Below are positions 14,865 through 29,705 of a DNA stretch of 64,000 nt, piece by piece (positions within the stretch are counted from its first letter, which is position 1; each line of letters begins with the position of its first letter). A model generated the notes under the pieces. The model saw only the letters and a list, made by a program, of their open reading frames with translations, was not told the origin of the DNA and did not search any database. A program made the translations under genes and the position numbers. Source of the DNA: an uncultured bacterium (lineage in GTDB: Bacteria; Bacillota; Clostridia; Oscillospirales; Oscillospiraceae); contig CAMNQF010000002.1 of assembly GCA_946548895.1 (NCBI GenBank), positions 1 to 64,000 on the forward strand, read 5' to 3'.

Positions 14865-14940
14865 GGGCGATTAGCTCAGCTGGGAGAGCGCAGCGTTCGC
14901 AACGCTGAGGTCGTGGGTTCGATCCCCATATCGTCCACCA
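14865..14940 (+). tRNA. tRNA-Ala, anticodon CGC
   Basis: A 76-nt cloverleaf with encoded CCA. Acceptor GGGCGAT pairs with ATCGTCC and includes a G3-U70 wobble, the classical alanine identity element. The anticodon stem CAGCG/CGCTG encloses loop TTCGCAA, giving anticodon CGC (codon GCG). The T-arm GTGGG-TTCGATC-CCCAT is standard. A CGC isoacceptor fits a GC-rich genome. Confidence 0.95.
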
Positions 14941-19379: not shown

Positions 19380-19985
19380 ATGAAGAAACTAACCGCACTG
19401 GCTGCCGCCGCGCTTCTGACCGCGGCGCTCACCGTATCCGCGTCCGCGTCCAGCCTGAACCATACCGTGGTTCCAGGGGATACAATGTGGAAGCTGGCAG
19501 TCAAATATCAGGTTGGCACCAGCGAGATCATTTCCGCCAATCCGCAGATCGCCAACCCCAATCTGATCTATCCCGGACAGATCCTGAATATCCCGCAGGT
19601 TTCGGACACAGTCCTCAATTATGAGAATGAAGTGATCCGGCTGGTGAACGAGATCCGCACGGAGAACGGGCTGAAGCCACTGACGGCGAACTGGGAGCTG
19701 TCCCGGATCGCCAGGTACAAGTCGGAGGATATGTCTGACAACCGATACTTTTCCCATACCAGCCCCACCTATGGCACCCCGTTCCAAATGATCCGGGCCT
19801 TCGGCCTCTCCTACCGCTCCGCCGGGGAAAACATCGCCTATGGGCAGAGGACGCCCGCCGCCGTCGTGAACGCCTGGATGAATTCCAGCGGCCATCGCGC
19901 CAATATCCTCAACGCATCCTATACGCAGATCGGCGTGGGCTATTGCGCCAGCGGAAATTATTGGACGCAGATGTTTATTGGATAA
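19380..19985 (+). CDS. Secreted LysM + CAP (SCP/PR-1, YkwD-like) protein
   Basis: 201 residues. A signal peptide (1-23, ending SASA) is followed by one LysM domain (about 28-72: HTVVPGDTMWKLAVKYQVGT...NPNLIYPGQILNIP), which binds peptidoglycan sugars, and a CAP domain (about 82-200: NEIRTENGLKPLTANWELSRIA, YFSHTSPTYGTPF, GENIAYGQ, GHRANILNASYTQIGVGY). CAP residues His and Glu of the cavity are present. The family includes spore-coat/YkwD-type proteins of unclear activity. ATG 19380 has AGGAGG upstream. It stands alone between a rearrangement joint and mobile-element relics. Confidence 0.9.
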   Translation: MKKLTALAAAALLTAALTVSASASSLNHTVVPGDTMWKLAVKYQVGTSEIISANPQIANPNLIYPGQILNIPQVSDTVLNYENEVIRLVNEIRTENGLKPLTANWELSRIARYKSEDMSDNRYFSHTSPTYGTPFQMIRAFGLSYRSAGENIAYGQRTPAAVVNAWMNSSGHRANILNASYTQIGVGYCASGNYWTQMFIG

Positions 19986-20002
19986 GCCGTCCGTTCCTTG
20001 CG

Positions 20003-20357
20003 TCAACGCTTTCCTAGCCTGCCCAGCAGAAGCTGGGCGTAGGGATCGTCGAGCGCCGCCTGAATGACGGCATTGTGTATGGCACGGAACTCTTTCTGCT
20101 GGGACAGCGGGATGCTCTTCATGGACTTGCCCGAGTAGAACTCGTTTATCGCTCTGCTGAATGTCCAGCCACTTGTCCTCCAGCGCCTGGGTGATGAACG
20201 CCGAGGTGTTGGCCTTGGTGGGGCTGTCACCGTAGCTGCCGCGCTCCGGCAGTTTTTTCGCGCCGGGAAAATCTTTTGTCAGGCTGGCGATGAGCTGCGC
20301 CTGCTTTTGTGTGGCGGGGCGTCCGTCAGGAACCAACTCTACCCGTTCCTGGGTGGC
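20003..20357 (-). pseudogene. Frameshifted fragment resembling the N-terminal part of a MobP-type relaxase
   Basis: Read on the minus strand from 20357, one frame gives ATQKQAQLIASLTKDFPGAK, then PTKANTSAFITQALEDKWLD, the kind of segment found near the N terminus of clostridial mobilisation relaxases. Near 20150 the frame degenerates, and the neighbouring frame continues with INEFYSGKSMKSIPLSQQKE to a stop at 20003. No start codon or ribosome site is seen, and the 5' side is cut by the IS1182 relic. The relaxase assignment is by memory of family sequence and is uncertain; that this is a broken gene is clearer. Confidence 0.45.
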
Positions 20358-20751
20358 CAGCCTGTCGAAAAAGTCTGCCTTGGGGCAGACTTTTTCATGC
20401 AAGGGAGGTAAGATGGAGGGAAGGTGAGGGAGATGCTGAAAAAAGGACGAGAACTGCGGCGGAACGTGGTAGAATTTCTGACATTGGAGGATCGGATACC
20501 GCAGGATCATCTGTTGCGGAAAATAGATGGGGCAGTAGATTTTATGCACCTGTACGATTTTGTGGGAAGCGAATCGGGCAGGGGCATTGACGCCTGGGAC
20601 AGTGTTCATTGACGGGACGCATATCAAGGCCAGCGCGAATGTAAACAAGGAGATCAAGCAAGAGGTACCCGCCGCCGCAGCGCGGTACCGGGAGGAGCCG
20701 CAGGCGGAGATCAACGCAGGCCGGGAGGCCCATGGGAAGAAGCCCTTCGAT
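20358..20751 (+). mobile_element. Internally deleted IS1182-type transposase relic, copy 1
   Basis: Starts at CAGCCTGTCGAAAAAGTCTG with a palindromic AAAAAGTCTGCC...GGCAGACTTTTT end. It encodes the start of an IS1182 transposase (RRNVVEFLTLEDRIPQDHLL, RKIDGAVDFMHLYDFV), then jumps in another frame to the middle of the protein (VFIDGTHIKASANVNKEIKQ, AGREAHGKKPFDKG). The central part, including most of the DDE region, is missing and there is no right end. It is inactive. A second copy with the same internal joint is at 29304-29705. Confidence 0.8.
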
Positions 20752-20835
20752 AAGGGGCCTATGAGAAAGTGAGAAGAAACGGCGCCGGGCTTTTTTCGCA
20801 TGGAAACGCCCAGAAGTGGGTCAATGTGTCGCTGA

Positions 20836-21096: not shown

Positions 21097-24000
21097 ATGG
21101 ACCTGCTGGATTCGCTGGGGCTGGAAGGCCCAATCAAAAACTATTCCCTGGAGGAAATCTGCGCCGCGATTGAAAAGCTGCAAAAGGCAAAAGCGGCGGC
21201 AAAACGGCAGGAAAAGGCCGAGCGGCAGCGCAGGGAGCGGGAAGAACGGGAGCAGAAAGAGGCACACATCCGCGAAGTGACCTGCATGGACCTTCCGCTG
21301 GATTGGAACAACGCGTTCCAGTCAGACATCCGAACCCAAGGCGTCCATGTGGAGTGTGTTTCAGATGGGCTTGTTTGGAGCTTGAACACCCTGGGCCGCG
21401 TGGACATCGAATACATCGCCGCCGTCACCGGCGCGGACTATAAGACGGTGATTGGTACGCTGAAGGGTTCCATCTATCAAAATCCCGAGACTTGGGGCGA
21501 ATGCTTTTACCAGGGCTGGGAGACCGCGGAGGAATACCTTTCCGGCAACCTGATGCGGAAATGGAAGGTCGCAAAGAAGGCCGACCGGGCGTATCAAGGT
21601 TATTTCAGCGACAATGTAAAGGCAATCCAACGGGTACTGCCCCCGGCAGTGCCGGCGGAGGATATCTATATCACGCTGGGCTCTCCATGGGTCCCAACCG
21701 ATGTGATCGACGACTTTATCCTTTCCCTGTTTGGCGAACCGATGACGTATCCGCGGGAGGGAGAATTCAACTGGGAAAAAACCATGGAATCCTATCAGAC
21801 AAGGCATGATGAAATCACTGGAACGTGGGAAATCCCTGACAAATCAAGATACCGGCGTAACGTGGGCGTCACTCAGACGTATGGAACCGAGCGGATGGGG
21901 GCGCTGCACATCCTTGAAAAAACCCTCAACATGAAAACGGTCGCGGTGACAGATGAAATCGGCTGCCCTGCAAACGCTTCCGGGAAAAAACGTGTTGTCA
22001 ACCAGGGGGAAACGGTGGCGGCGCTGGAAAAGCAGCAGAAGCTGATCCATGCGTTTCAAGCGTGGGTTTGGACGGACGAAACGCGCAAAAAACGCCTGGA
22101 GGCCATCTTTGAGGAAAACTATGGCTGCGTCCGCCGGAGGATTTTTGACGGCTCATTTTTGACCTTCCCCACGCTGTCCCCGTCCATCCAGCTGTACCCC
22201 TATCAAAAGGACGCGGTGGCCAGGATCATCTTTTCGCCCAACACGCTGCTGGCCCACGACGTCGGCTCGGGCAAAACCTACGTGATGATCGCCGCGGGGC
22301 AGGAGCTGCGCCGCATGGGGCTGTCAAAGAAAAATATGTATGTGGTCCCCAACAATATTCTGGGACAGTGGCGGGACATTTTCCTGGCGATGTACCCGGA
22401 CGCAAAACTCCTATGCGTGGGGCCGAAAGCGTTTACTCCCAGCAAGCGGGAAATGGTTCTTGAAAGGATACAGAGCGAGGATTTTGACGGGATTATCATC
22501 GCCTACAGCTGCTTCGAGCAGATCCCGCTGTCAAAGGATTATTACATTGGGGAGCTTGAGGGAAAAAAAGAGACGATTGCCAAACTGGCGGCCCAGAAGG
22601 GAAAGGCCACATCCAGGCTGGAGCGGAGGCAGAACGCGCTGGAGAAGGCGCTGTCCGATTTATCCGCCGCCATGGATGAGATGTACGACACCATCTATTT
22701 TGACGAGTTGGGTATTACCCGGCTGTTTGTGGACGAGGCGCACAATTTCAAAAACGTCCCCATCGATACCCAAACGACCAATGTGCTGGGGGTCAGCGGG
22801 TCCGGGTCGAAAAAGTGCCAGGACATGATGGACAAGGTCCACATGATTCAGCGGAAAAACGGCGGAAAAGGCGTGGTATTCGCCACCGGGACGCCCATCA
22901 CTAACTCCATCACCGACGCGTATATCATGCAGCAGTACCTGCAAAGCGGTGAGCTGGCCATGCTGGATTTGCAGAGCTTTGACAGCTGGATCGGGATGTT
23001 CGCCGAAAAGGCCACGGAATTTGAAATCGACGTGGACACCAAGCAGTATCGGATGGCCACCAGGTTCTCGAAATTTCACAACCTGCCTGAACTCACCTCC
23101 CTGCTGTCCTCCATCGCGGATTTTCACCAGGCGGACAGGGCGGCGGGCCTTCCGGAGCTGGATGGATACCAGGACGCGGTGATATCAAAGACGCCCGCGT
23201 TTTCCGCCTACCTGGACAAAATCTCGGACAGGGCTGAGGAGGTGCGGAACGGGCGGGTCAGCCGCAGCGAGGACAATATGCTGAAGATCACCGCGGACGG
23301 CAGGAAGGCGGCGCTGGACCTGCGGCTTGTGGATTCAAAGGCGGCGTTTACCTACCAGTCAAAGGTGGCCAGGTGCGCGGAGACCGTGGCCGACTTTTAT
23401 TTCAAAACCTACCGGGCAAGGAGCACGCAGCTGGTTTTCTGCGACACCTCCACGCCCAAGGCGGGCTTTAACCTCTACGACGAGCTGAAGGACCAGCTGA
23501 TCCGCTTCGGCGTTTCAGAGGATCAGATCGCGTTTATCCACAGCGCCGGTACCGAGGCGGGGCGGAGCGCGCTGTTTGCCGCGGTCAGGGCGGGACAGAT
23601 CCGAATCCTCATCGGCTCCACCTTCAAGCTGGGGCTGGGCGTCAACGTCCAGGACAAGCTGATTGCCCTTCACCATCTCGACGTACCCTGGCGGCCCGCG
23701 GACATGGTTCAGCGGGAGGGGCGGATCTTGCGGCAGGGCAATGAAAACGGCAAGATTCATATTTTCCGCTACATCACCGAGGGGAGCTTTGATGCCTATT
23801 CCTGGCAGCTGCTGGAGGCGAAGCAGCGCATGATTACCGGCATCCTGTCCGGCTCCCTGGCGGAGCGCAGCGGCCCGGACGTTGAGGGCACGGCGCTGAA
23901 CTATGCCGAGGTGAAGGCGCTGGCTGTGGGCGACCCGCTCATCAAGGAACGGGTGGCGGCCGCCAATGAGCTGATGCGGTACACGGTGCTCCAGCGCAGG

Positions 24001-24552
24001 CTGGTGGACGCAAAGCTGCGCATGGAGCAGGAGCTGATGGAGCTGCCCGCGAAGATGCGGGCCCAGCGGGAAGCTGTCCTCAAATGCGAGGGGGATCTAG
24101 CCCGCGTCCTCCCACGCCCAGAGGAGAGCGGCGGTCAGGCCCGGAGGGAGCAGACGGCGGAGCGGAAGGCCCTTCGGGAGCGCATCCGGCAGGGCCTGGA
24201 GGGCAACGTATTGAAGATAAAGGAGACGCCCTTGATGGAATACCGGGGTTTTGACGTGATCCTCCCCGCAAATATGACGCTGGAAAAACCGTATGTCTGG
24301 CTGTCGGGACAGGGGAGATATTATGTGGAGCTGGGCAATACCGAGGTGGGCAACCTGGTCCGCATCGACCATTTTCTTGACAGCATGGCGGAATACCTGC
24401 AAACACTGAAGCTAGGGCGCTCCAAACTGGAAAAGAGGGAGGCCGAGCTCAAAGCGGAGCTGGCAAAGGATGAAACTTACATGGATGAAATCGAGCGGTA
24501 CCGAAAAAAGATTGAATTACTGGACAAAGAGCTGGGGGTGAATCAAGGATGA
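21097..24552 (+). CDS. Large SF2 (SNF2/DEAD-like) helicase of the mobile-element type
   Basis: 1151 residues. A charged helix (about 31-66) precedes an N-terminal region typical of large helicases on phages and integrative elements (DIEYIAAVTGADYKTVIGTL; WETAEEYLSGNLMRKW). The ATPase core has HDVGSGKTYVM (Walker A, about 388), VDEAHNFKN (DEAH, about 545), VFATGTPITNS (motif III), LIGSTFKLGLGVNVQD and MVQREGRILRQGN (motifs V and VI, about 870), then a charged C-terminal coil. It should translocate on or remodel nucleic acid. Such helicases are often fused to an adenine methyltransferase, absent here. ATG 21097 follows GGGGGAGGGGG; ATG 21067 has none. ATGA overlap with the next gene. Confidence 0.88.
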   Translation: MDLLDSLGLEGPIKNYSLEEICAAIEKLQKAKAAAKRQEKAERQRREREEREQKEAHIREVTCMDLPLDWNNAFQSDIRTQGVHVECVSDGLVWSLNTLGRVDIEYIAAVTGADYKTVIGTLKGSIYQNPETWGECFYQGWETAEEYLSGNLMRKWKVAKKADRAYQGYFSDNVKAIQRVLPPAVPAEDIYITLGSPWVPTDVIDDFILSLFGEPMTYPREGEFNWEKTMESYQTRHDEITGTWEIPDKSRYRRNVGVTQTYGTERMGALHILEKTLNMKTVAVTDEIGCPANASGKKRVVNQGETVAALEKQQKLIHAFQAWVWTDETRKKRLEAIFEENYGCVRRRIFDGSFLTFPTLSPSIQLYPYQKDAVARIIFSPNTLLAHDVGSGKTYVMIAAGQELRRMGLSKKNMYVVPNNILGQWRDIFLAMYPDAKLLCVGPKAFTPSKREMVLERIQSEDFDGIIIAYSCFEQIPLSKDYYIGELEGKKETIAKLAAQKGKATSRLERRQNALEKALSDLSAAMDEMYDTIYFDELGITRLFVDEAHNFKNVPIDTQTTNVLGVSGSGSKKCQDMMDKVHMIQRKNGGKGVVFATGTPITNSITDAYIMQQYLQSGELAMLDLQSFDSWIGMFAEKATEFEIDVDTKQYRMATRFSKFHNLPELTSLLSSIADFHQADRAAGLPELDGYQDAVISKTPAFSAYLDKISDRAEEVRNGRVSRSEDNMLKITADGRKAALDLRLVDSKAAFTYQSKVARCAETVADFYFKTYRARSTQLVFCDTSTPKAGFNLYDELKDQLIRFGVSEDQIAFIHSAGTEAGRSALFAAVRAGQIRILIGSTFKLGLGVNVQDKLIALHHLDVPWRPADMVQREGRILRQGNENGKIHIFRYITEGSFDAYSWQLLEAKQRMITGILSGSLAERSGPDVEGTALNYAEVKALAVGDPLIKERVAAANELMRYTVLQRRLVDAKLRMEQELMELPAKMRAQREAVLKCEGDLARVLPRPEESGGQARREQTAERKALRERIRQGLEGNVLKIKETPLMEYRGFDVILPANMTLEKPYVWLSGQGRYYVELGNTEVGNLVRIDHFLDSMAEYLQTLKLGRSKLEKREAELKAELAKDETYMDEIERYRKKIELLDKELGVNQG

Positions 24553-25664
24553 GCGAGACAGCGTTGACCAATATTCCAACCATGCCGGTGGGAAAGCTGG
24601 TGGACAAGCTTTCCCACGCGTACAGCAGGCTGATTGCCCAAAAGTTGCCGGTAAAAACCATGCCTTCCGTCATGCTGTGGGGCGCTCCCGGCGTAGGGAA
24701 ATCTCAGGCAGTCCGCCAGATCGCGGAGGAGATTGGAAGCAATACCGGGAAGACAGTACACGTGACCGATGTCAGGCTGCTGCTGTTCAGCCCCATCGAC
24801 CTGCGGGGCATCCCCACGGCAAATGCCGACAAAACCCTGGCCGTGTGGCTGAAGCCCCAAATTTTTCAGATGGACAGCAGCGAGAAGATCGTCAATATCC
24901 TGTTTTTGGACGAGATTTCGGCGGCGCCCCAGTCGGTGCAGGCCGCGGCCTACCAAATCACGCTGGACAGGGTGGTGGGGGAGCATAAGCTGCCGGAAAA
25001 CTGCATTGTGATCGCCGCGGGCAACCGCACCACAGACAAATCAGTGGCGTACAAAATGCCAAAGGCCCTGGCCAACCGCCTCCTCCACATCCAGGTTGAG
25101 GTCAGCTTCCGGGCCTGGAAGGAGTGGGCGATTCAGGGCGGCGTGAACGGCAAGGTGCTGGGGTTCCTGTCCTTCCGGCAGAGCTATCTCATGGGATTTG
25201 ATCCGTCGTCGGACGATCTGGCCTTTGCCACGCCCCGTTCCTGGGAGATGGTGAGCAATATCCTGAACTTCATCGACGGCGATGTGGAGATGGCATATCC
25301 CATGATTGCCGGAATCGTTGGGACAGGCGCGGCGCTGGAATTCCGCACATGGACAAAGGTATACCAGCAGCTGCCCGATATCGAGGACATTTTCAACGGG
25401 GGAACGCCCGGTCTGCCGCAAAATACAGACGCCATGTATGCGCTGACCGCATCTATGACTGCCTACGCCCGGGAGCATAGGGATGATATGAAAAAAATTG
25501 CCAACTCCATCCGCTACGCGGGCAGGATGCCGCCGGACTTTTCCACTGTTTTGATGCGGGACTATCTGTATCTTGAGAAAAACTACAAGGACAAGCTGAT
25601 GGCGGTTCCTGAATTTACACAGTGGCTGCGCAGGTCGGGAGGCTTGATGAATGGCGCTGTCTGA
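24549..25664 (+). CDS. MoxR-type AAA+ ATPase
   Basis: 371 residues. Walker A is MLWGAPGVGKSQAVRQIAEE (about 42-61), Walker B is ILFLDEIS (about 117-124), and CIVIAAGNRTTDKS holds sensor 1, followed by the ANRLLHI region and a C-terminal lid. MoxR ATPases act as chaperone-like partners of VWA proteins, which matches the gene immediately downstream. It overlaps the helicase stop by 4 nt and the VWA start by 14 nt, so the three proteins are made together. Cytosolic; substrate unknown. Confidence 0.9.
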   Translation: MSETALTNIPTMPVGKLVDKLSHAYSRLIAQKLPVKTMPSVMLWGAPGVGKSQAVRQIAEEIGSNTGKTVHVTDVRLLLFSPIDLRGIPTANADKTLAVWLKPQIFQMDSSEKIVNILFLDEISAAPQSVQAAAYQITLDRVVGEHKLPENCIVIAAGNRTTDKSVAYKMPKALANRLLHIQVEVSFRAWKEWAIQGGVNGKVLGFLSFRQSYLMGFDPSSDDLAFATPRSWEMVSNILNFIDGDVEMAYPMIAGIVGTGAALEFRTWTKVYQQLPDIEDIFNGGTPGLPQNTDAMYALTASMTAYAREHRDDMKKIANSIRYAGRMPPDFSTVLMRDYLYLEKNYKDKLMAVPEFTQWLRRSGGLMNGAV

Positions 25665-26904
25665 GGAACAAATCCGGGGATATATCAGTAGGCTGCTGCT
25701 GTCCAGGATGCGGATTCTGTGCAATCACGGCTTTTACGGCCTGCTGCTGATGCACATGACATATTCCATTGATGAGGCGCTGGATACCGCCGCCACCGAC
25801 GGTGTCCGCATCATGTTCGGCGCGGATTTTTTGGACAGTCTCACCGACCGTGAGCTGGATTTTGTCATGATGCACGAGATCCTCCACGTGGTGCTGCGGC
25901 ATTGCCTGCGCGGGGCGGACAGAGACGGCGAGCGGTTCAACATCGCCTGTGATATTGTGGTGAACTCCAATATTTTACTGGAACACCAGATGGACCGGCA
26001 AAGCATCACCTTGAAAAAGTACGGTGAATCCATGCACCTCGCGCCCGACGGCAAAGAGGGGTATGAATATACCGCCGAGCAGGTGTATGAGATGCTGCCA
26101 GAACAGATGGAACGAAAAGAAGGAACCCGCGGCGGCATCGCGCTGGGCCGGGCGAAACAGGAGCCGGCGCGTGTAAAATCACCGGCCCCGCAAATGTGGG
26201 ACGACCATTCTCCATGGGGAATGGTCGAGGACGATGACGTTATAAGAGATGTGTGGGTAAAGCGGTTTGAAGATGCCTGCGAGGCCATTTCGGTGCGCGA
26301 TCCGTCGAATACCCGGGGGCTGCTGCCCATGTTCGCCCAACGTTTATGGGAAAAAATGCGGAAACCCCAGACCGACTGGCGGACCGTTCTCAACGACTTC
26401 GTCCAGGAAGAGACGGCGGATTACTCCTTCCTGCCGCCGGACAGGCGGTTTGACGGCAGCCCGTTTTTTCTGCCGGATTTTAACTGGAAAAAGGATCGGG
26501 TGGAGGATATCCTTTTTATGATCGACACCTCCGGCTCCATGTCGGACGAGATGATCGCGGCGGCGTATTCGGAAATCAAAGGCGCCATCGACCAGTTCGA
26601 CGGCAGGCTGAAGGGCTGGCTCGGATTTTTCGATGCGGCGGTCATTGAGCCAAAGCCCTTTGAAGACGAGGCGGAATTCCGCGTGATCCGTCCGGCCGGG
26701 GGCGGCGGGACGGATTTCCAAATCATATTTGAATACGTGATCCTGCATATGGGCGCCCGGCTCCCGGCAAGCATCATCATCCTGACAGACGGCTTCGCCC
26801 CGTTCCCAAAGGAAGCACTGGCGAGGGGTATTCCCGTTTTGTGGCTGCTGAACAATGAGGAGGTGGAGCCCCCGTGGGGGAAAGTTGCAAGAATTACGGT
26901 ATGA
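25651..26904 (+). CDS. DUF2201-type zincin-like + VWA domain protein, MoxR partner
   Basis: 417 residues. The N-terminal domain contains FVMMHEILHVVLRH, an HExxH zinc-peptidase-like motif at residues 75-79 with a further His84, as in DUF2201 proteins. A linker rich in charged residues (about 120-200) leads to a C-terminal VWA domain with the MIDAS motif DTSGSMSDE (Asp292) and IIILTDGFAPFP. VWA domains present a metal-dependent binding face, and MoxR partners typically remodel such proteins. The last gene of the helicase-MoxR-VWA cassette, it is followed by a strong terminator. Confidence 0.88.
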   Translation: MALSEEQIRGYISRLLLSRMRILCNHGFYGLLLMHMTYSIDEALDTAATDGVRIMFGADFLDSLTDRELDFVMMHEILHVVLRHCLRGADRDGERFNIACDIVVNSNILLEHQMDRQSITLKKYGESMHLAPDGKEGYEYTAEQVYEMLPEQMERKEGTRGGIALGRAKQEPARVKSPAPQMWDDHSPWGMVEDDDVIRDVWVKRFEDACEAISVRDPSNTRGLLPMFAQRLWEKMRKPQTDWRTVLNDFVQEETADYSFLPPDRRFDGSPFFLPDFNWKKDRVEDILFMIDTSGSMSDEMIAAAYSEIKGAIDQFDGRLKGWLGFFDAAVIEPKPFEDEAEFRVIRPAGGGGTDFQIIFEYVILHMGARLPASIIILTDGFAPFPKEALARGIPVLWLLNNEEVEPPWGKVARITV

Positions 26905-26921
26905 GCGCGGCTCGCAGCCAA

Positions 26922-26963
26922 CAGCGCCCAGGACAAACGAAATGTCCTGGGCGCTGTGGTTTT
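26922..26963 (+). terminator. Terminator of the helicase-MoxR-VWA cassette
   Basis: CAGCGCCCAGGACA (26922-26935) pairs perfectly with TGTCCTGGGCGCTG (26943-26956) and is followed by TGGTTTTGG. It begins 17 bp after the VWA stop codon. Confidence 0.85.
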
Positions 26964-27018: not shown

Positions 27019-27684
27019 TCATACGCTTGCTTTACTCATCTTTTCCTCTATGCGGTAGCATGGATGATAATAATTCTTACACTTATTCCGAAAAGCTGGG
27101 AAATATTTTATGACTGTGTCATATGTCCCGCCGCAGATAATGATGTCTGGAGAAATAAGTTCGATTTCAGCTTGGATGAAGCGCTGGTAACGCGCCACAT
27201 AGTGCCCGACGCGGGCCATATTGCAGCAGCCAAAGCCACCGCGTTTGTTCAGATTCATGTAAGCCAGGTTGAGCGGCTCATGATATTCTTTAACAATTTC
27301 TTGGATAAATTTGTAATACCTATCCTTTTTATTTCCCTCAGGATTCCTAAACTGTTCCCTCATCCAAAAACGCCCCTGCTCAGGGATCAATTTTTGATCA
27401 ACAATTTTATCTTTACCTAAATTTGCCTCGCGGCAGATAAACAGAAGTGTTCGTTGCCCGCTTTGCGGTGTTGTCAGAAAGCCATCCCGGCAAAAACTGG
27501 AATAAAAATCATTCCGATAGTCGATGTCCTGCCTCCCGGACTTCTTCAAATCTGGAAATGTGGAAAGATACTGATCGAGCCAGGTATCTTTTTGCCCGGC
27601 CTCGTCCTCTTGCGCTTTCCTCCAATCATTGAATAACCGTTCATCGAATAGCAGATCCAACTCTTCTTCAGTCAATGCCCTCAT
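27019..27684 (-). CDS. Uncharacterised protein resembling the uracil-DNA-glycosylase fold
   Basis: 221 residues, soluble. The order RTLLFICREANLGKD, LAYMNLNKRGG, IELISPDIIICGGTYDTVI and YHPCYRI parallels the motif order of UDG-superfamily proteins (motif 1 loop, Asn-containing strand, P-D-x-I-x-x-x-G strand, late His loop), but the active-site residues are not canonical, so glycosylase activity cannot be claimed. The ATG is 4 nt after the WYL regulator's stop, with AAAGG spanning the junction, implying translational coupling. It is convergent with the helicase cassette. Confidence 0.55.
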   Translation of the reverse strand: MRALTEEELDLLFDERLFNDWRKAQEDEAGQKDTWLDQYLSTFPDLKKSGRQDIDYRNDFYSSFCRDGFLTTPQSGQRTLLFICREANLGKDKIVDQKLIPEQGRFWMREQFRNPEGNKKDRYYKFIQEIVKEYHEPLNLAYMNLNKRGGFGCCNMARVGHYVARYQRFIQAEIELISPDIIICGGTYDTVIKYFPAFRNKCKNYYHPCYRIEEKMSKASV

Positions 27685-27688
27685 CCTT

Positions 27689-28744
27689 TCATCTGGCGTA
27701 ATGCCCCGCCGCTTTCTCGATATCCTCCCGCACCGCCTCCACCAGCCGCTCCGGGCCCAGCACCCAGGCGTGGACGGCGTACTGTACCGCCCAGCGGCGC
27801 ATGGCCTCCAGATCCACCGTCACCCGGACGGTGAGCTCATCCTCCGTCACGTCGGAAATCTGGATGCCGTCCCCAAACCAGTCGATGATCTCGCTGAGCA
27901 GATAGCGCTTGGCCCGGAAGGTTACCGGGGCAGTCTCGCCGGAAAAGGGATAGATGTGTTCCAGCATATGCCGGGGTACGTCCAGCCCGTGCTCCAGCCC
28001 CTTCACCCGCTCCATGGGCTTGGCCGGGGTGTCCAGCAGCTCGATATCCACGATGCGGTCCAGCCGGTAGTGGGCCAGGTCGTCGTATTTATCGTAATTG
28101 CACAGCAGGTAGTGCCGCCCGCTGGCCGCCACGATCTGGTAGGGGTTGACCACATACCGCCGGGGCTCGCCCTCCCCGTCCAGCCGCAGGCGGGGCCGCT
28201 TGTCCAGGCCGTACTCGGTGTAGTGAAACGCCACCTGCCTACGGCGGCTGATGGCCTCGTCCAGCACCTCAATGGTGAGAAACAGCTGCCGGCTGGGGGC
28301 GGCGGCGTCCGGCATGGAGCGGATGTGCCCCGTGCGGGCGCGGAAATACTGGCTGGACAGCTTTTCCAGCTTGCCGATCAGCGCCTCCCGTTGGCCGGAC
28401 GGGATATTCCGGGAGAACAGCACGCTGTCGATGAGCAGCCGCAGCTCGCTGTCGTCGAAGTCCCGCACCAGATAAAAGTCGGACAAAATGCTGTTCTCTT
28501 CCAGCTCCCCGGTTTTGGGGTTGGGGGTGCGGCGGACGGTTTCCGTGTACTCAATGTCATAGCCAAAGTCGATCAGGTCCATCAGGTTGCGCTTAATGGC
28601 CTTGCGGTCCGGCTCCATACCGTACTGCGCCGCGATACGGTCCGCGATGTCCCGCTGGCTGAGGCGGTGATCCTTGTCGCTCTCCCGGCGGAGGATGTCC
28701 AGAATGTTCAAAATCAGCAGCTTCTTGGGCTGTACACCGTACAT
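27689..28744 (-). CDS. WYL-domain transcriptional regulator
   Basis: 351 residues. N-terminal winged helix-turn-helix (LLILNILDILRRESDKDHRL followed by SQRDIADRIA...RKAIKRNLMDL), central WYL/Sm-like domain (GRHYLLCNYDKYDDLAHYRL followed by DRI) and a C-terminal WCX-type region (VTFRAKRYLLSEIIDWFG). WYL regulators sense nucleic acid or nucleotide ligands and often control defence genes (BREX, CBASS, CRISPR contexts). ATG 28744 has AGAGGTG upstream; GTG 28753 is in frame but overlaps that site. It probably regulates its operon and may act on the neighbouring helicase cassette; this last point is inference. Confidence 0.88.
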   Translation of the reverse strand: MYGVQPKKLLILNILDILRRESDKDHRLSQRDIADRIAAQYGMEPDRKAIKRNLMDLIDFGYDIEYTETVRRTPNPKTGELEENSILSDFYLVRDFDDSELRLLIDSVLFSRNIPSGQREALIGKLEKLSSQYFRARTGHIRSMPDAAAPSRQLFLTIEVLDEAISRRRQVAFHYTEYGLDKRPRLRLDGEGEPRRYVVNPYQIVAASGRHYLLCNYDKYDDLAHYRLDRIVDIELLDTPAKPMERVKGLEHGLDVPRHMLEHIYPFSGETAPVTFRAKRYLLSEIIDWFGDGIQISDVTEDELTVRVTVDLEAMRRWAVQYAVHAWVLGPERLVEAVREDIEKAAGHYAR

Positions 28745-28762
28745 CGTTTTCACCTCTCGACC

Positions 28763-29303: not shown

Positions 29304-29705
29304 CAGCCTGTCGAAAAAGTCTGCCAGAGGGCAGAGCTTTTTCATGCAAAGGTGGTAAAATGGAGCAGAGGTGAGGGAGATGCCGAAAAGGACAAGAACT
29401 GCGGCGAAATGTGGTAGAATTTCTGACATTGGAGGATCGGATACCGCAGGACCATCTGTTGCGGAAAATAGATGGGGCAGTAGGTTTTACGCACCTGTAC
29501 GATTCGGTGGATTTTGTGGGAAACAAATCGGGCAAGGGCATTGACGCCTGGGGCAGTGTTCATTGACGGGGCGCATATCAAGGCCAGCGCGAATGTAAAC
29601 AGGAAGATCAAGCAAGAGGTACCCGCTGCGGCAGCGCGGTACCGGGAGGAGCTGCAGGCAGAGATCAGCGCAGGCCGGGAGGCCCATGGGAAGAAGCCCT
29701 TCGAT
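29304..29705 (+). mobile_element. Internally deleted IS1182-type transposase relic, copy 2
   Basis: Same left end, same transposase start and the same internal joint (ATTGACGCCTGGG(G/A)CAGTGTTCATT) as copy 1, in the same orientation 8.9 kb away. It differs by a 9-bp insertion (CGGTGGATT) and scattered substitutions. Similarity stops after CCCTTCGAT; no right end is seen, and the following 200 bp to the PAP2 gene hold no gene. Confidence 0.8.

Follow-up and report, generated by a model that had tools for sequence, protein, structure and literature searches.

MoxR-type AAA+ ATPases that act together with a partner carrying a von Willebrand factor A (VWA) domain have been described in several contexts. 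MoxR rings and their VWA partners capture an extended peptide via the metal-ion-dependent adhesion site (MIDAS) and remodel the client, and MoxR-vWA ternary conflict systems add VMAP, iSTAND, FtsH or other third components (PMC7159879). The iSTAND type has a vWA protein with fused peptidase effectors (PMC12839542). A pair consisting of MoxR and a metallopeptidase-vWA protein was reported from jumbo phages (group 2.2) with a proposed role in virion assembly and processing (PMC7824862), and gp24 and gp25 represent the core MoxR-zincin/VWA pair of N4-like phages (PMC4193335, PMC7650795). SNF2 motors translocate on double-stranded DNA and are found fused to zincin domains in polyvalent proteins (PMC5512222). 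Here, we analysed a cassette of three overlapping genes, termed the trio, which encodes an SNF2-type helicase, a MoxR ATPase and a zincin/VWA protein in an uncultured bacterium of the Oscillospiraceae (GenBank assembly GCA_946548895.1, contig CAMNQF010000002.1, positions 1 to 64000; this whole stretch of 64,000 nucleotides (nt) is called the window). The trio is conserved as a unit among gut Clostridia, and the chances that it serves in genome defence appear about even. An earlier reading of this DNA, the original prediction, had stated that MoxR-VWA pairs are known, and their zincin/VWA form is indeed already described from jumbo and N4-like phages; it had known of no description of the trio, and none was found in open-licence PMC papers, with subscription papers and preprints outside the search.

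A three-gene operon and its conservation

The cassette comprises the following features:

21097-24552, plus strand: SNF2-type SF2 helicase/translocase of 1151 amino acids (aa), counted from ATG 21097 (Pfam, PHROGs, tree)
24549-25664, plus strand: MoxR-type AAA+ ATPase, 371 aa (Pfam, PHROGs, motifs)
25651-26904, plus strand: DUF2201 protein with zincin and VWA domains, 417 aa (Pfam, PHROGs, alignment, structure model)
26916-26961, plus strand: strong hairpin 3' of the VWA stop codon, probable terminator (folding energy)

The helicase and MoxR genes overlap by 4 nt and the MoxR and VWA genes by 14 nt, and the open reading frames (ORFs), Pfam matches and motifs agree with the genes and domains of the original prediction at 21097-26904. 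The helicase frame opens earlier, at ATG 21067 (1161 aa), but ATG 21097 is the likelier start because it is preceded by a GGGGGAGGGGG stretch that, read by eye, resembles a ribosome-binding site. In Pfam, the helicase matches SNF2-rel_dom (8.4e-9), Helicase_C (2e-7) and also ResIII, MoxR matches AAA_3 (PF07726; 2.5e-8, 34.3 bits versus a cut-off of 27), and the third protein matches DUF2201_N, a putative metallopeptidase (5.8e-31), and the DUF2201 VWA-like domain (PF09967; 2.8e-15). In PHROGs, helicase residues 96-1153 match the DarB-like phrog_10089 (E 5e-235), MoxR matches phrog_1297 (E 2.6e-95) and the VWA protein phrog_1314 (E 6e-72). In PHROGs and numerous phage records, the latter family carries the label 'HNH endonuclease', whereas its member in the window is a DUF2201 metallopeptidase with a VWA domain. 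All motifs of the window trio are intact, including Walker A, DEAH, the MoxR Walker B, HEILH and DTSGSMS. The zincin motif HEILH occupies residues 75-79 in the N-terminal domain of the third protein and the MIDAS DTSGS residues 292-296 in its C-terminal VWA domain. The single closing terminator that had been predicted is probable: the hairpin folds with -35.5 kcal/mol (z -7.4 versus 200 shuffles), although its T run is short and a consensus terminator scan did not pick it up.

Relatives were searched with the third protein alone in one genome per species (84,980 species). Because exact peptide patterns of the window protein were used, the loci found are close relatives only. The search yielded 49 loci, to which one viral contig was added. 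The names of the 49 are all clostridial except for one ('Bacterium') and refer mostly to assemblies from gut metagenomes; the few trio carriers that lack a metagenome label include Ruminococcus bromii 5AMG and Lachnospiraceae AC2029. Helicase, MoxR and VWA genes are present in identical order in 42 of the 50 loci, some of them clipped by a contig end. In five of the remaining eight, the contig starts within the pair or shortly before it (L027, L030, L049, L057 and L058), and three are fragments only (L060, L062 and L063). Five additional trios were found beyond these loci (L118, L121, L122, L123 and L126). Among 47 trio loci, 26 show exactly -4 nt between helicase and MoxR and 36 show -14 or -17 nt between MoxR and VWA, overlaps that are far beyond chance; some deviating values reflect split alignments, as L122 and L123 overlap by 14 nt according to their ORFs. 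One stop codon each interrupts the helicase alignments of L015, L055 and L118. The MoxR and VWA genes of L056 (7998-11377) are seemingly part-duplicated in tandem after a single helicase.

The three proteins also diverge in parallel, with distance-matrix correlations of 0.922 for helicase and MoxR, 0.885 for helicase and VWA, and 0.897 for MoxR and VWA, values that were reached by none of 2000 permutations (42 rows including the window). The co-occurrence of the three proteins, for which the original prediction had suggested a search, is borne out by both the common order and this co-divergence (r 0.89-0.92). Relatives that are 72-76% identical reside on contigs labelled Ruminococcaceae, Oscillospiraceae and Lachnospiraceae, labels that may err since these are mostly metagenome assemblies.

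Within the class, the VWA protein (E<=1e-30) was detected in 9 of 391 genomes and MoxR (E<=1e-40) in 11, namely the same nine plus two distant pairs. Six of the nine pair genomes contain the trio, in one of them (G291) with a stop in the helicase frame; a seventh (G274) is cut just upstream of the pair, and G163 and G250 are pair-only. Helicase relatives (E<=1e-60, best two candidates scored per genome) are present in 89 of the 391 genomes. Those at least 50% identical were found in six, and in five of these the pair adjoins, while the sixth match (G295) is cut off by the end of its 3.3-kb contig; at this identity, a helicase occurring mostly without the pair is not what the class shows. Most other matches are 30-44% identical and lie in frames of >2,000 aa, which by length alone is the size of methylase-helicase fusions. 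Among 40 searched relatives of the window genome, the VWA protein (E<=1e-30) was found in one of 25 genomes of its genus, which is the window's own, and the L126 trio comes from the same order. In viral contigs only two trios were found, both on short contigs (11.5 kb and 13.8 kb). G293 and L026, both with a length of 121311, are apparently one and the same contig.

Synteny and co-divergence of the three genes support the conclusion that the trio is one machine, which gut Clostridia inherit and exchange as a unit. Its patchy presence and its close relatives across family labels mark it as accessory and mobile.

The MoxR-zincin/VWA pair and the helicase clade

The catalytic residues of the pair are strongly conserved. 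HExxH and the MIDAS DxSxS are kept in all 42 trio VWA proteins with enough coverage, and GxPGxGKS is kept in 43 of 44 such MoxR proteins. Across 33 aligned VWA proteins, H75, E76, H79, D101, D292, S294, S296 and D380 are invariant, and the zincin-linker-VWA layout is uniform without variable effector fusions. The structural model of the third protein has a predicted local distance difference test (pLDDT) score of 72.7, with a confident N-terminal domain (1-150) and much of 153-281 poorly predicted. Its VWA fold matches, among others, the Rea1/MDN1 MIDAS and a NorQD chain. Profile searches on the ancestry of the zincin returned only weak matches, to MJ1213 (E 0.007) and to M48-type proteases.

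The MoxR-zincin/VWA pair is also widespread in phages. Its genes are adjacent and overlapping in Salmonella phage SP-058 and separated by a few genes in phage G and phiFa, and no helicase stands beside the pair in the phage pairs inspected, including five phage/plasmid pair records. HExxH is kept in the five phage/plasmid loci (L139-L143) and in 28 viral loci (L148-L175); this motif check took in viral loci L147-L175 and left out L176-L184. FtsH-like and phosphatase genes near the SP-058 pair were considered as counterparts of clostridial trio neighbours and rejected, as their matches are short, 22-34% identical and generic. Near the helicase-free pairs of Synechocystis pSYSA (L142) and of a Sphaerotilus plasmid (L143) lie DUF262 genes, in the latter case together with a Sir2 gene. 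Chromosomal pair-only copies comprise L116, L117, L124, L125 and L197-L199; among those of the class, L116 and L117 have HQxxH and L124 and L125 have HExxH. In 299 genomes of the phylum, the MoxR search (E<=1e-60) added only three proteins with 39-42% identity, each accompanied by a VWA gene but by no helicase within the 15-17 kb inspected.

For the helicase, GxGKT is kept in all 44 trio copies with enough coverage. The open frame is 1168 aa long versus >2,000 aa for most other relatives, and the Pfam scan found no methyltransferase domain. Its relationships were analysed in a tree of 61 rows, in which rows at least 80% alike had been thinned and L083/L084 dropped because they duplicate L120/L119 or each other's genomes. 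In this tree, 39 trio and two stand-alone helicases split from 20 phage, plasmid and long-frame helicases with a support of 100 in the approximate likelihood-ratio test (SH-aLRT). Setting the trio helicases on their own needs two changes in the 61-row tree; an alternative tree with the trio helicases united fits better and is not rejected by the approximately unbiased test (p 0.975). An earlier FastTree run placed the stand-alone helicases, with low support, inside the smallest set containing all trio rows. As judged from these sequences, the trio helicase belongs to a deep clade that is separate from the DarB-type helicases sampled from phages and mobile elements. The original prediction of a mobile-element helicase lacking its methyltransferase is thus correct on the missing domain, but the protein is not simply a mobile-element helicase. 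Its N-terminal region (residues 82-392) is well modelled (pLDDT 84), and Foldseek found no solved structural relative of it (best E 1.6).

Related stand-alone helicases without the pair are present in two class genomes (G152 and G312), and frames of stand-alone size (1116-1251 aa, 36-40% identity) occur in G171, G197 and G389. Two sister helicases, L119 (7116-10700, minus strand) and L120 (7530-11102, minus strand), lack the pair and have an N-terminal sce7726 domain (L119: NCBIfam NF033832, E 4e-42). Its D...ExK pattern resembles by eye a PD-(D/E)XK nuclease, a likeness for which no tool gave a match. Next to L119 lie genes for a CbxX-like AAA protein and a WYL protein. The L119/L120 proteins possibly constitute a related nuclease-helicase system.

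Neighbourhood of the trio

Flanks were scanned with Pfam and PADLOC for 295 ORFs of 46 loci, with the window excluded; the long ORF L035:12456-19076 was left out, which gives 294 flank proteins. The background consisted of Pfam matches in 60 class genomes (148.9 Mb; WYL 75, AAA_lid_6 18, GmrSD_N 22), some of which count several per gene. Of 48 trios, that of the window among them, 24 have in their flanks a WYL gene, which encodes a kind of regulator associated with antiviral defence, and the 25 genes in 0.522 Mb of flank without the window correspond to a 95-fold excess, which substantiates the WYL setting to which the original prediction had pointed. SpoVK/CbxX-like AAA genes are found near 15 of 48 trios (238-fold over background). 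GmrSD/DUF262 proteins account for 6 of the 294 flank proteins (about 100-fold), at L017, L022, L033 (two) and L046 (two). Because the loci are related to each other and the sets of flanks are limited in size, enrichment p-values are not to be taken literally. The WYL and CbxX locus labels come from profiles built out of the flanks themselves, and an independent Pfam check on the 294 proteins found 22 WYL and 13 AAA_lid_6. In four cases (L022, L024, L026 and L054) an ORF had been swapped for an overlapping opposite-strand ORF of the WYL/FtsH group, from which at most three of the 22 WYL matches stem.

Neighbour groups present in at least four loci are WYL, SpoVK/CbxX-like AAA, FtsH-like AAA, PPP-type phosphatases, RecF/RecN-like proteins and leucine-rich-repeat (LRR) proteins. 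The RecF/RecN-like group occurs at 6 of 48 trios, with RecN (E 0.22) as its sole library match. The 25 commonest Pfam families per scan in the flanks of the 46 loci include no relaxase, secretion or phage structural gene that recurs, and conjugation genes are rare in the top families, with one Mob_Pre and two PcfJ among the 294 proteins. A fixed conjugative or phage backbone around the trio is not supported, as flanks vary by locus and the recurrent groups are not conjugation or phage genes. WYL genes and genes for SpoVK/CbxX-type AAA proteins of 670-700 aa, whose N-terminal region is long, also recur jointly at loci lacking the trio, for example in L192 and L193, and perhaps represent a module of their own.

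In the window, the trio is accompanied by the following features:

27689-28753, minus strand: WYL-domain transcription regulator, convergent with the trio (library scans, flank comparison)
27019-27684, minus strand: protein of 221 aa and unknown family, directly downstream of the WYL gene in tandem with a 4-nt gap
20358-20751, plus strand: decayed IS1182-family transposase fragment, left direct repeat
29304-29705, plus strand: decayed IS1182-family transposase fragment, right direct repeat

The window WYL protein is 50-58% identical to those at L046, L030, L015, L049, L045, L054, L022 and L031, which are six full trios and two contigs cut inside the trio. Because the other trio-linked WYL proteins are only 23-37% identical to it, several WYL lineages have, by this comparison, been drawn in by trios; another WYL protein of the window's own genome is 53% identical. 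Searches of Pfam, PHROGs, PADLOC, NCBIfam and PDB sequences gave no match for the 221-aa protein, and the other genome loci compared contain no relative of it; by eye, its end resembles a uracil-DNA-glycosylase-like pattern.

The two IS1182 repeats are 90% identical over 404 nt, lie about 8.95 kb apart and are the two copies found in the genome. They bracket, as direct copies, the trio, the 221-aa protein and the WYL gene, in agreement with the setting among mobile relics in the original prediction. Their identity rests on protein matches to annotated transposases (best E 3e-8), and no DNA match was found among plasmids. Flanking direct repeats were rejected as a general trio feature, as repeats of at least 48 nt were seen across only 5 of 42 trios with usable flanks, the one of about 400 nt only in the window; L031 has an inverted flanking repeat of 480 nt. 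Measured per 500 nt, the G+C content of the stretch from about 14.5 to 29.5 kb is 0.44-0.64 and mostly <0.60, compared with values of 0.65-0.67 for 10-12 kb and 0.59-0.68 for 30-34 kb. The bracketing and the low G+C content fit a recent arrival or insertion-sequence shuffling. A tRNA-Ala (cgc) gene at 14865-14940 marks the left edge of the low-G+C stretch and was rejected as an attachment site, as the window contains no further exact copy of its 14-20-nt ends. The divergent 470-aa ORF at 19389-20801, with a weak MobP3 match (E 0.0018), was not counted as a system gene because its first part is antisense to the IS1182 relic.

Possible functions and comparison with known systems

According to families and intact motifs, the SNF2-type protein would be an ATP-driven double-stranded-DNA translocase, MoxR would form an AAA+ ring and the third protein would be its VWA co-chaperone with a built-in zincin metallopeptidase, which should make the MoxR-VWA pair able to cut. 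The translocase may engage foreign or abnormal DNA, or proteins on such DNA; the VWA domain would capture an exposed peptide, MoxR would remodel the client and the zincin would cut it. The target could be an invader protein, or a host protein whose cleavage leads to growth arrest, and the WYL regulators near many copies probably control expression. The reading of the trio as a genome-defence machine against invading DNA, in which the translocase brings proteins to an AAA+-driven metallopeptidase, is favoured because of the patchy spread, the company of WYL and GmrSD genes and the context of the sister helicases, and we give it an even chance. A more specific version, DNA-directed proteolysis, is on balance improbable: a patrolling SNF2 translocase would pass DNA-bound relaxases or phage proteins to the MoxR ring and its zincin-VWA adaptor. 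The invader's DNA-bound proteins, and not its DNA, would then be destroyed, in mechanism a parallel to the helicase-p97-SPRTN pathway that eukaryotes use for crosslink proteolysis.

Several observations weigh against defence. WYL regulators and CbxX-type ATPases are not specific to defence, half of the trios have no WYL gene in the DNA seen and, besides WYL, CbxX and GmrSD, the neighbours are largely ordinary chromosomal genes, many of them metabolic. No trio protein approaches the cut-off of any NCBIfam defence model, the PADLOC matches of the trio are partial and weak (best E 3.4e-13, in the C-terminal part of the helicase), and other PADLOC matches around it are scattered, without matched control or per-protein attribution. 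In addition, there are pairs that lack the helicase as well as sister helicases that lack the pair, and virion assembly is the proposed role of the jumbo-phage relatives of the pair (PMC7824862).

The trio could instead be a DNA-repair or stress machine resembling the eukaryotic helicase-p97-SPRTN pathway: the SNF2 protein would run into DNA-protein crosslinks or stalled complexes, which MoxR would unfold and the zincin would cut, with WYL as a damage-type regulator. A double-stranded-DNA translocase, an AAA+ protein and a zincin tied in one operon with their catalytic residues kept would suit such a task. WYL proteins include DNA-damage regulators such as PafBC, which we counted in its favour; PafBC and the DNA damage response are named together in PMC5656591. 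Still, the presence in 9 of 391 genomes and the GmrSD neighbours suit a conflict role better, and no repair family recurs among the neighbour groups except for the RecF/RecN-like proteins, which leaves repair unlikely but to be taken seriously. Quite unlikely is a function for a mobile element, with a DarB-derived anti-restriction or maintenance helicase and a chaperone pair as cargo or relic of an integrative element, protecting the element and not the host. The homology of the helicase to DarB-type helicases of phages and plasmids, the IS1182 remnants around the window trio and the few PcfJ-like and Mob_Pre flank proteins would agree with it, but the helicase clade is separate and without methyltransferase, the viral trios are confined to two short contigs, the five phage/plasmid pairs have no adjoining helicase, and neither the neighbour groups nor the top Pfam families contain a recurrent conjugation or phage structural gene.

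Very doubtful, too, is a host chaperone for complex assembly, in which MoxR-VWA would mature one dedicated enzyme, as in RavA-ViaA or NorQ-NorD, and the helicase would be its client or a mere neighbour. Studied MoxR-VWA pairs do act on protein clients (PMC7159879), the VWA model matches Rea1/MDN1 and NorQD, and chromosomal pair-only copies exist. This is countered by the co-divergence of the helicase with both MoxR (0.922) and VWA (0.885) and, more weakly, by HExxH in 42 of 42 trio VWA proteins versus HQxxH in two of four pair-only copies of the class. That the three genes are chance neighbours without joint function has practically no probability; only the generic nature of their domains would speak for it, against gene order, overlaps and co-divergence across loci.

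The trio is a defined cassette of three genes whose products conserve their catalytic residues, and it occurs in common gut bacteria. It links two large families that are poorly understood, the phage-type MoxR-metallopeptidase/VWA pairs, whose function is unproven, and the DarB-type SNF2 motors. If the defence reading is true, protein cutting directed by a DNA motor joins the bacterial means against invading DNA. If not, the trio still provides a genetic handle on the role of the MoxR-zincin/VWA pair.

Among described systems, the phage MoxR-zincin/VWA pairs share both PHROG families and the HExxH motif with the trio, but they have no adjoining helicase where inspected, while the trio is a bacterial accessory operon. 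DarB-type methylase-helicases contain a helicase module homologous over about 1,050 residues; in contrast to them, the trio helicase is a stand-alone protein of about 1,150 aa in a separate clade, without methyltransferase domain and with MoxR and VWA as partners. DISARM DrmD, Dpd DpdE and BREX BrxH show generic similarity in the SF2 C-terminal part, but the helicase scores 41.6 bits versus a cut-off of 610 for DrmD and 27.6 versus 500 for DpdE. No other DISARM, Dpd or BREX component was found among ten window proteins scanned, the lone DrmA match being the helicase itself. The ternary conflict systems resemble the trio in combining a MoxR AAA+ protein, a vWA co-chaperone and a third protein, and SNF2-clade helicases are among their effectors. 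The MoxR-clade ATPase and the vWA domain with MIDAS are both present in the trio, whereas its third component is a separate SNF2 translocase, its zincin is constant in place of variable peptidases, and it was found here in Clostridia. In Pfam alone, the helicase gives helicase-type matches only, with none to VMAP, iSTAND or another described third partner. Because these third-component and variable-effector features are unmatched, the trio is placed as a variant of the MoxR-vWA ternary systems. Thus, the MoxR-zincin/VWA pair, the ternary systems and the helicase module are each already known, whereas their combination in three genes was not found in the literature searched.

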